Of a DNA stretch of 42,613 bases, positions 36,451-39,861 are shown piece by piece. Source of the stretch: Desulfobacterales bacterium (GTDB lineage: Bacteria > Desulfobacterota > Desulfobacteria > Desulfobacterales > JAIPEE01). The notes beneath the pieces are model-generated. The model was not told the DNA's origin and searched no databases. It worked only from the letters and a program-made list of their open reading frames with translations. How positions within the stretch are numbered: position 1 is the stretch's first letter; the number at the start of each line of letters is the position of its first letter. Position numbers and translations under genes: made by a program. The stretch covers positions 1 through 42,613 of the forward strand of contig JAIPEE010000034.1 of NCBI GenBank assembly GCA_021737275.1, in the 5' to 3' direction.

Positions 36451-37137
36451 TCAGGCCTTCAAATCACGCTGTATCAAGATATAAAGGATTGCCAGAGAGA
36501 AAATAATCATAAAAATCGGGCTGAAAAACCACATCATCAGCGGAATTAAAAAATAATACCCTCTGATACCCATGGAGAAGTGTATCCCGGAAGTAAGGAA
36601 CATTTGGTCCAGATGGGATGTGGAATCTTTGCCCTCAATTTTATCAAGCTGGTCCTTCGGAATATTAAGAATAAAGGACATATAGTTGACCTCGCGGATA
36701 TGCGATGTGAAATTGAAAAAAGAATAAGATAAAATCAATACAATCAGCAAAAGTTTGAAAGCTTCTACGGACGGATCTGTTGTCCCTAATACATGGAGTG
36801 AATTCAGCTGTATTTCTGATGACCCCAGGGTATGCAACATACCAAGCGCCCCCATAATCAATATTACTGAAGTTGAAGCCATAAAAGATGCACTCATGAT
36901 CGTATTCCGCATGGTTTGCACAACTACAATGCTATTTTGATCACCGGTATGAATTTCTATCCAGGCCTTCCGATATTGCTGCAGCTTACCAAGAAAAAGT
37001 TTTTGGGGCCGGAACCTGAGCATCAACGCAAGAAAATATCGATATCCAAAAACGACCGAAAGGAAAATGATCAGAGCGATCCAATCAAAAAGTGTAAATT
37101 TAAAAAAAATATTTCCAAAAGTTGAAAATGCCGACAT
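36451..37137 (-). CDS. DUF599 family membrane protein
   Basis: A 228-residue protein with four to five hydrophobic segments. The central VVVQTMRNTIMSASFMASTSVILIMG segment (about residues 72-97), preceded by RKAWIEIH, is typical of the DUF599 family. Function is unknown. It lies 33 bp after the tetrahaem cytochrome gene and closes the same operon, so it may be the membrane component of that redox module; that is inference from position only. Confidence 0.8.
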   Translation of the reverse strand: MSAFSTFGNIFFKFTLFDWIALIIFLSVVFGYRYFLALMLRFRPQKLFLGKLQQYRKAWIEIHTGDQNSIVVVQTMRNTIMSASFMASTSVILIMGALGMLHTLGSSEIQLNSLHVLGTTDPSVEAFKLLLIVLILSYSFFNFTSHIREVNYMSFILNIPKDQLDKIEGKDSTSHLDQMFLTSGIHFSMGIRGYYFLIPLMMWFFSPIFMIIFSLAILYILIQRDLKA

Positions 37138-37170: not shown

Positions 37171-37629
37171 TTACGCCTGCTCTTTGATATGGCACTCCTT
37201 GCATCCCGTCGGACCGGTTGCAGGAAGTTTCGGTTTTAATATGGTTTTATCCTGCTCAATCTCTTCTCTTTTTATCCTGATCTCTTTATGGCACTCAATG
37301 CATGCTTTATGAAAAGCCGTTTTATAGTTTCTGAAGGCAGACGTTTCCTGTGATGTCTTGATAAGATCATGGCAGCCTGATGCCATACACCCGGTTACCT
37401 GGCTATACCCATCCCAAGTGTGATGGCACTTCTTACAATTGTAATCAAAGTGTCGGGAGTGGGGAAAAGATACTGATTTAGACCGTTTTGGCGTTACCCC
37501 GACCGGTGGTGAAATACTCAGGTCTCCCACAGGCACATAAATGCTGTCCATCTCTTTTGAAAAGGATATAGATGCCGCTGCAATCATAAGAACTATTATA
37601 GGCAGCAGGCTTACCTTGTTTTTAAACAT
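37171..37629 (-). CDS. Periplasmic tetrahaem cytochrome, class III (c3-like)
   Basis: A 152-residue protein with a signal peptide (about residues 1-24) and four haem-attachment motifs: CKKCH at 65-69, the extended CMASGCH at 81-87, CIECH at 110-114 and CKECH at 143-147. The FPHSRH segment (His57 and His60), His70 and His107 are positioned as distal ligands. This histidine and cysteine pattern, including one CxxxxCH, is that of cytochrome c3, the periplasmic electron carrier of sulfate reducers. GGAG precedes the ATG. It lies 69 bp after the multihaem/rhodanese gene and is a natural electron partner for it. Confidence 0.88.
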   Translation of the reverse strand: MFKNKVSLLPIIVLMIAAASISFSKEMDSIYVPVGDLSISPPVGVTPKRSKSVSFPHSRHFDYNCKKCHHTWDGYSQVTGCMASGCHDLIKTSQETSAFRNYKTAFHKACIECHKEIRIKREEIEQDKTILKPKLPATGPTGCKECHIKEQA

Positions 37630-37698: not shown

Positions 37699-39861
37699 TT
37701 AATAGCCACACCCCGGATACCTGACAAAGCTTTCCCATCCAACCCACGATGCATCATGCATTCTTACATCCGGATAACCCAGATAACGCAGCATAAAAAA
37801 ACCGGCACCTGCCCATGCGCCTGTATTACAAGTAATAATGACGGTTTTGTCCGGAGTTATGCCCCGGTTTTTAAGTACATACAACAATTCCTGAGGTGGT
37901 TTAACTTCAGCATGATCCATATAAAGTCCGTTCACCGGAAACTTTATAGAACCGGGAATACTGCCCAGGCTCAATGCACGGGGATGCTTGGCCAGTTTCT
38001 TGGACTGATCCAGTGTTCGAATATCCACGATAACAACATTGAAGTTGTCAAGATTGTCCAGAACAAACCGGTTATCAACAATAAACTGTGGTTGCGGTTT
38101 TATCTTAAATGTTTTGGCTTGAATATCCGGGTTATCCTTGCTCATGGGAAGCCCGGCTTCACGCCAATTTCGGAAACCGCCTTTCAGAAATGATATTTTT
38201 TCTGCACCGGCATAATCCAGCACGGACAGAAAAAATCCGGCCCGCCAGCCATCAGCATCATACACAACAATATGATCGGTTTCGTTAATACCTTTATCAC
38301 CCAGAACACGGGCAATTCTTTCAGGCTTAAGAAGCTGCTGGGGTTTATCCGAACCCCATGGCCAGCGCAACTCTCCGTCCTTCATGGGATCTAACTGTAT
38401 GGCTCCTTTTATGTGTCCATTTTTATAAACCCCTTCGGAACGGGTATCAATGATAACCAGATTTTCAGTATCGATATTATCCTTCAGCCATCGGGCATCA
38501 ACAATCCTGTCTTTTTTAACATTTCCGGTGTCAATATCCAGTGCCCTGGTCTTACTGATTTTTGCAGGTACCTGGGCATCAGAAACGACAACCTTTTCAT
38601 TCACCGTTATTTCATAATCCAGAAGATCCCTTTTGGACAAAAAGATATCCCGGTTATCATGACAATGATTACACGTTGCGGTCTGCCATGTTTTTCGCTG
38701 GATATTGTGCGGTGTGGCCCGTTTCCAGTTTGGCACGTCGTCAAAATCAGCCAGCGCATCTTTTGTATAATGGTCAAAAAGCTGTTGATCTACCGGCACA
38801 TGCCGAACCAGCATAAAGTTATAATCTGCGCCCGGTGCCGTATTATCATAGTTAAGCCCGATTTTGAAATTTTCTACATCTTTTTGGCTGGTATAATAAG
38901 GTAATCCATCTTTATCCGTACCGGTATGACAACTGTAACAGTTGGTATAGGATTGCGAATGGCAAACCTGGCACTGGACTTTACCAATATGAACATTATG
39001 ATCCCTGATGGACCCGATCTTCAGATCCTTATGGCAGTCCGTACATTTGGCAGCTTCTTCAAGATGATAACGACCAGCAAGGTTTTTCGGTGCCGCAGCA
39101 TGCATCTCTTCGGCCTTATGGCAGGAAACACAATGCATATTATAATCTAATGCATGAATATCACCCTGGCCCCTCATGCCAAGATATTCATTCCCGACTC
39201 GACTGCCATGGCAGGCAGTGCATTGATTGAGCAGGTCAGGACGTGCACTGAAAACATGGCCGTCAACAAAACCTTTTCCAACGGATTCAGGGCGGCTGAC
39301 ATGGCATCCGCCGCAACTGGTATGACATTGTCCGCAATGACGTTCCCGTCCTGCATCAATCTCTTTCCATTTATCCATGTCAGCACGCTGTTTTAAAATA
39401 GTTGAAAAGGGCCCAAGGGTCACATGAAGCGAATCCTTTACCGTGTCCGTTATTTCCCCATGACACTCGCCGCATGCATGTTCAGGATTATTGATTGACG
39501 GTTGGGGATCTACACCCTGATGGGCGGTCATTTTATCTGATGCCCCGGTATTGCCGCCATGGCAGTCAACACATGCAATTTTACCATGATCTGTTTTGAA
39601 AAATTTATTAGATACCTTTACTTTGTCCTGCGGCTCCAACGGAGCCACGGAGCCGCCTCAGCCGGCGCCTGATGTTAATGTTGATTTTTGCGGTTTCTTT
39701 TTGGACAGATTTTTGGTGAGCTTGTTTTCATCCGTATGGCAGCTAACACAACTTGATGCGGCCAGGACATTTCCGGTATAGATACATACAACCATCAACG
39801 CCAATGCCATTCCAACGAACATGGCGGACATATGATTTCGCTGTCTCTTATAAACCCACAT
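37699..39861 (-). CDS. Putative selenocysteine-containing 11-haem cytochrome c with two rhodanese domains
   Basis: Read as one 720-residue protein with selenocysteine at position 68, encoded by an in-frame TGA (39658-39660). Residues 1-35 form a signal peptide and the first CxxCH is at 38-42. After the motif SGAG-U-GGS come ten more CxxCH motifs (about 97-101, 130-134, 176-180, 183-187, 214-218, 244-248, 273-277, 297-301, 308-312 and 397-401). Two rhodanese domains follow (about 454-573 and 590-715). The first has Asp535 where the catalytic cysteine belongs; the second keeps Cys678. The downstream part has no signal peptide of its own and no ribosome binding site before its first GTG (39648), so readthrough is needed for haem loading. 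GGAGAGG precedes the ATG. Alternatives are a nonsense mutation or a sequencing error. A role in periplasmic sulfur or selenium chemistry is inferred. Confidence 0.75.
39630..39660 (-). promoter_or_regulatory. Candidate bacterial SECIS element
   Basis: Directly after the in-frame UGA, the mRNA can fold GUGGCUCC (39641-39648) against GGAGCCGC (39630-39637), an 8-bp stem with one U-G pair and a GUU apical loop (39638-39640). The loop begins 17 nt after the UGA and starts with GU, as expected for SelB recognition. A competing stem uses GCGGCUCC (39649-39656) with the same 3' arm. The segment is much more GC-rich than the surrounding gene. Confidence 0.7.

Follow-up and report, generated by a model that had tools for sequence, protein, structure and literature searches.

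A multihaem cytochrome c joined to tandem rhodanese domains, with a predicted UGA-encoded selenocysteine, in a Desulfobacterales bacterium

Cytochrome selenoproteins as such are already known, namely ExtKL and MccSep. Among the 119 prokaryotic selenoprotein families in an inventory from 2026, those related to haem are ExtKL, a GSU2204-type CXXCH protein and a Sec-bearing entry of TIGR04315 (PMC13188914). ExtKL, which is encoded by GSU2937 and GSU2936 and described by the model NF040886, resembles the protein studied here in being a Desulfobacterota c-type cytochrome with an in-frame UGA and in having a rhodanese, ExtH, in its cluster (PMC1914089, PMC5877670). MccSep, a multihaem c-type cytochrome selenoprotein in the PDB (9wt8, 9wt9, and 9wta-c), is similar in kind, and no publication on it was found in our literature search. 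The octahaem tetrathionate reductase of Shewanella (1sp3; TIGR04315) resembles residues 89–437 of our protein moderately in predicted fold and weakly in profile. The rhodanese half is of the SseA/thiosulfate sulfurtransferase type, sharing both the fold and the arrangement of an inactive first domain and a Cys-bearing second domain. TsdA, a dihaem thiosulfate dehydrogenase/tetrathionate reductase that carries an S-thiosulfonate on a Cys located at its active haem, is used here as a mechanistic model only (PMC5146829).

The window, which means the whole stretch of DNA analysed, comprises 42,613 nucleotides of contig JAIPEE010000034.1. On its minus strand, positions 39861–37699 form one open frame of 720 residues that is interrupted once, by a TGA at codon 68 (39658–39660). 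The original prediction described a 67-codon part with a signal peptide and CVSCH that continues in the same frame after the TGA, and a 649-codon part, counted from a GTG, that has ten further CxxCH motifs and two rhodanese domains and lacks a signal peptide when taken alone. This description of the frames was upheld, and the number of CxxCH motifs is 11 in total. The gene is complete and its frame is kept in 67 homologous loci. All features given below are on the minus strand. The signal peptide covers residues ~1–35 (39757–39861), with a boundary placed by inspection and an N-terminal helix at 3–33 in the predicted model. The motif of haem 1, CVSCH (residues 38–42, 39736–39750), lies 5' of the UGA and is invariant in 53 sequences, and the CxxCH motifs of haems 2–11 are located at residues 97–401 (38659–39573) in a core resembling octahaem tetrathionate reductase. 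With an export signal and 11 CxxCH motifs, the protein fulfils the criteria for multihaem c-type cytochromes. The tandem rhodanese occupies residues 452–715 (37717–38508) and matches PF00581 with an E value of 3e-32 (111.5 bits against a gathering score of 22.2) and 1urh with 28% identity. Comparison with characterised rhodaneses predicted Cys678 (37828–37830), present in the motif CNTGAWA of the second domain, as the catalytic residue, and indicated an Asp at the loop position of the first domain.

Scanning genome contigs yielded nine relatives, each with TGA in the same column. The family is widespread in anaerobic Desulfobacterota; a family profile search, which was confined to this phylum, was positive for 48 of 395 genomes and, within the window's order, for 49 of 291. 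Desulfobacteraceae and Desulfobulbaceae are among the holders that have a name. After removal of duplicates, TGA was observed in 67 distinct homologous loci, far beyond chance, and the predicted motif SGAG-U-GGS was confirmed, its family form being GxG-U-(G/A)G. In five relatives (L108–L112), which group together as a single clade in the tree, the column is occupied by Cys (codons TGT or TGC) in the motif EGCGGAAP or SGCGGTAP, and one homologue of the fused form (L069, from G339 contig 82) has Tyr. A true Sec/Cys pair therefore exists. Since L069 keeps the same fusion and machinery, including selB, the Sec site can be lost, and the function of this Tyr variant is possibly lost or its active site changed. 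The glycine beside Sec (G67) is invariant in 53 aligned sequences, and the C, C, and H of the 11 haem motifs are invariant in 59, with ten CxxCH and one CxxxCH in the Cys homologues and in three Sec members. Sec or Cys follows haem 1 in every complete sequence read except one. Between the window gene and three relatives, synonymous sites are near saturation, but there is little nonsynonymous change either before or after the UGA. Two gene copies appear to be broken by a frame change (L114 of G448 and L102 of G324), and one member (L099:6326-8146) has an additional N-terminal CxxCH block, with 17 CxxCH altogether.

A hairpin of the bacterial SECIS type, GTGGCTCC-GTT-GGAGCCGC (39630–39648), is located just 3' of the UGA. 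Its 8-bp stem, its GUU loop (39638–39640) and the spacing of 17 nt from the UGA to the beginning of the loop agree with the stem-loop that had been proposed, and the SECIS criterion of a hairpin at this place with a G among the first loop bases is fulfilled. Compensatory changes across homologues were observed: in the 8-bp stem of 27 members, 94% of the cells are paired and 20 cells are changed on both sides, and the covariation score was matched by none of 500 shuffles. The VAPLEP and VEPLAP subclades have swapped arms (GGCTCC/GGAGCC versus GGAGCC/GGCTCC), in which the stem is kept and the residues are exchanged. All 28 of 28 genes use TTG for the Leu codon that leads into the loop, whereas its share elsewhere in these genes is 12%. 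A divergent subgroup with the motif GEGUAG has a 6-bp stem that is 94% paired and a loop containing G. Covariation was not significant in this subgroup, where the stem is kept but the sequences vary so little that covariation can hardly be tested. An Rfam search of the window gave no match.

The machinery for Sec, the presence of which had been named as a check, was found in full in the window's genome, with a tRNA-Sec (73 bits, anticodon UCA), SelB (372 bits), SelA (619 bits) and two SelD. The two selD genes are neighbours (C63:165761-166684 and 168564-169484), and each has an in-frame TGA, as in Sec-containing SelD. In the same genome, a secreted tandem rhodanese gene (L018:14918-16018) is located ~5 kb from the tRNA-Sec gene. 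Because selB is present in 353 of 395 Desulfobacterota genomes, and likewise in the genomes with the Cys and Tyr forms, its presence is necessary and not discriminating, and co-occurrence with selB was dropped as uninformative evidence for Sec decoding.

We conclude with high confidence that the UGA at codon 68 is read as Sec under the bacterial SECIS hairpin and that the product is an exported 11-haem c-type cytochrome; the evidence is computational, and neither Sec nor the protein has been detected. If translation ended at the UGA, the first product would be a cytochrome fragment of 67 residues, and translation would restart at the GTG. A ribosome binding site at the GTG had been reported as absent, which was wrong, and the GAGG found 7 nt upstream of it speaks for a restart. 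This GAGG is merely part of the conserved UGA-GG, however, and the site GGAGAGG just upstream of the ATG is better. Moreover, the UGA is kept in the 67 loci and the GTG is not, being CTG in L057, L060, L063, and L064 and missing from the GEGUAG subgroup. The Cys homologues are continuous through the column, residues are conserved on either side of the codon, and the hairpin covaries. The restart product would also have no signal peptide, yet its ten haems require export. A true stop with GTG restart was rejected on these grounds and is, in our judgement, very improbable. An error in sequencing or assembly, or a pseudogene, might be suspected in a draft assembly of 104 contigs such as the one containing the window. 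The homologues refute it, and we consider it scarcely credible: the codon is common to independent genomes, including the single-contig G494 and G658 (loci L116 and L119), which rules out a sequencing error, there is no frameshift, and purifying selection acts both before and after the UGA, unlike in a pseudogene. None of the conditions named beforehand as refuting the original prediction was fulfilled.

The predicted structure was examined with AlphaFold, which gave confident models, with a pLDDT of 86 and a pTM of 0.85 for the full-length protein and 87.6 and 0.82 for the cytochrome alone; the models contain no haem. For the rhodanese half, the matches were SseA and TST, with Z values of ~28–30. 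The best match of the cytochrome core (residues 89–437) was 1sp3, with a VIA Z of 9.2 and an rmsd of 4.6 over 268 residues, and the next entry had a Z of 4.3. Against a multihaem protein, a Z of 9.2 indicates no more than moderate similarity. A Foldseek search with the cytochrome half gave no match at E < 0.001, which is not evidence for a new fold, and the matches listed for the whole protein were all rhodaneses. Outside the CxxCH motifs, nine His residues and Arg353 are invariant in 53 aligned sequences. Since there are 11 haems, one or two of them probably have no conserved His ligand, as judged from the alignment, and perhaps have another ligand. The His count would permit an active haem that is open or ligated by Sec, though this step is an inference.

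The fusion of cytochrome and rhodanese that had been predicted is real in the window and is not a hallmark of the family, most members of which consist of the cytochrome only. Next to it on the same strand, usually a few tens to ~200 bp downstream, is a gene for a secreted or lipoprotein rhodanese. The family is thus wider than the fusion protein, with the fusion as a minority form and the rhodanese as the constant partner. A C-terminal fusion is found in the window, L009–L013, L068, L069, and L119–L122. In L083 (987 residues), both rhodanese domains are N-terminal, which is an independent joining in the reverse order, and in L098, L115, and L116 the rhodanese match is upstream of the cytochrome. 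Most adjacent rhodanese genes match an active-site Cys motif (CKxGGR, CDTG, or CNTG), the Cys forms also have a rhodanese partner, and visual inspection revealed single-domain rhodaneses, below profile detection, in L063, L117, and L127. When loci at contig edges (L055 and L100) and broken genes (L102 and L114) are left out, a rhodanese is fused or next door in all intact loci with readable flanks except L074. The fusion in two orders and the near-universal adjacency are strong evidence that the cytochrome and the rhodanese act in one reaction.

Other neighbours were also noted. In the window, a tetrahaem cytochrome c3 gene (37171–37629, minus strand; PF02085, E value 2.6e-18) lies 70 bp downstream of the selenoprotein gene. 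It is also present beside the fused gene in L009, L120, L121, and L122, with ~44–45% identity, and its product is a likely electron partner of the selenocytochrome. A DUF599 membrane protein gene (36451–37137) lies downstream of the tetrahaem c3 gene and is possibly co-transcribed. About ten loci (L014, L016, L017, L053–L056, and others) have a PAS/sigma54-type regulator gene near that of the cytochrome, often directly adjoining it. L074 has cysteine-desulfurase-like and IscU-like genes just upstream, and genes for metallo-beta-lactamase-fold and cysteine-rich proteins occur in the neighbourhoods of L074 and L060.

In rhodanese chemistry, a persulfide forms on the loop Cys. We propose, as the most likely interpretation and with an even balance of confidence and doubt, that the protein acts in the periplasm as a sulfane-sulfur reductase, the rhodanese persulfide passing to Sec68 and being reduced via the haem chain; the substrate, the direction, the sulfur transfer to Sec and the electron donor are all inferred. 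Thiosulfate, polysulfide or a comparable donor would supply the rhodanese with sulfane sulfur, to be held as a persulfide on Cys678. This persulfide, or a polythionate, may then donate sulfane sulfur or an oxidised chalcogen bond to Sec68, which is placed on a flexible GxGUGG segment. Electrons supplied by a tetrahaem c3-type cytochrome would travel along the haems to reduce the Se–S bond at Sec68, with release of sulfide. Sulfur as the substrate is supported by Desulfurivibrio, in which a secreted multi-rhodanese serves a polysulfide reductase (PMC12142623). The more specific picture, in which Sec68 lies at or ligates an active-site haem, forms a selenenyl-sulfide from the attached rhodanese and is wired by eleven haems, is only tentative, as the models are free of haem and the proximity of Sec and haem is inferred. 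No description of such combined sulfurtransferase, selenol and haem chemistry was met.

By analogy with the ext cluster, selenite reduction may be regarded as the main alternative to a sulfur substrate. The rhodanese would carry a perselenide and the cytochrome would reduce selenite or tellurite; the ExtKL cluster, with its rhodanese ExtH, is tied to these reductions, and the selenocytochrome family has a weak profile similarity to ExtM, ExtN, and ExtO (PMC5877670). However, no porin or other ext genes were seen among the recurrent neighbours, the selenocytochrome is not ExtKL, and in the ext work itself the direct evidence concerns ExtI, the role of ExtKL being called preliminary, so we hold a selenium or tellurium oxyanion to be a rather unlikely substrate. 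The opposite direction, with sulfide or thiosulfate oxidised at Sec68, sulfane sulfur removed by the rhodanese and electrons exported by the haems, is compatible with the nearly constant Sec or Cys after haem 1 and with the reversibility of TsdA-type enzymes (PMC5146829). Direction cannot be told from sequence, and the two families named above are among the holders, which leaves an oxidative role unlikely in our view. Desulfobacteraceae and Desulfobulbaceae are for the most part sulfur-reducing or disproportionating lineages. Small nitrogen compounds or oxidants (nitrite, hydroxylamine, or peroxide) could be the substrates of an enzyme like the octahaem, NrfA or HAO types in which the rhodanese protects or repairs the selenol, and the VIA list does include hydroxylamine oxidoreductase and octahaem nitrite reductases with Z values of 3–4. 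Such enzymes do not need a sulfurtransferase, which is the constant partner here, and we give this possibility little weight.

The near-constant coupling to rhodanese points to an undescribed selenium-dependent sulfur step outside the cell membrane, in which a selenol is added to periplasmic multihaem electron transfer. The partner opens to direct testing a question of the sulfur cycle, namely how sulfate reducers and related bacteria reduce sulfane sulfur beyond the inner membrane, and the Sec, Cys, and Tyr variants are a natural series with which the role of selenium can be investigated. Standard gene callers are expected to split the gene at the UGA, as in other UGA-decoded genes, so that the signal peptide is lost from the ten-haem proteins.

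ExtKL membership was ruled out by profile: NF040886 (cut-off 250 bits) had no match in the members scanned at E values up to 0.01 or 0.1, and in 10 genomes no protein passed the cut-off and no match was found at the selenocytochrome loci. The window protein and MccSep (9wt8) match only weakly in sequence (19 bits, E value 0.005) over one ~120-residue stretch of 122 positions, with the haem pattern unmatched. The cut-off of TIGR04315 (375 bits) was not reached by the window protein (17.6) or the best member, L033 (37.9), nor was that of the MST equivalog model (250 bits) by the window protein (107). No NCBIfam cut-off was reached by the selenocytochrome family and no counterpart was identified in the 119-family table (PMC13188914), in line with the initial impression that no selenoprotein of this architecture had been described. 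Since no curated cut-off is reached, ExtKL is excluded and the Sec of MccSep is elsewhere, the protein is filed as a new family and a new architecture among c-type cytochrome selenoproteins; the literature search was incomplete and a prior description is possible. ExtKL carries five haems N-terminally, and no relatives are known for its C-terminal part. MccSep has its Sec late, at 325 of 450, in contrast to Sec68 after haem 1 in the window protein. TsdA has two haems and Cys instead of Sec, and no homology to it is claimed. The octahaem tetrathionate reductase has eight haems and no rhodanese, whereas the window protein has 11 haems, and, unlike SseA and thiosulfate sulfurtransferase, its rhodanese is joined to an exported cytochrome.
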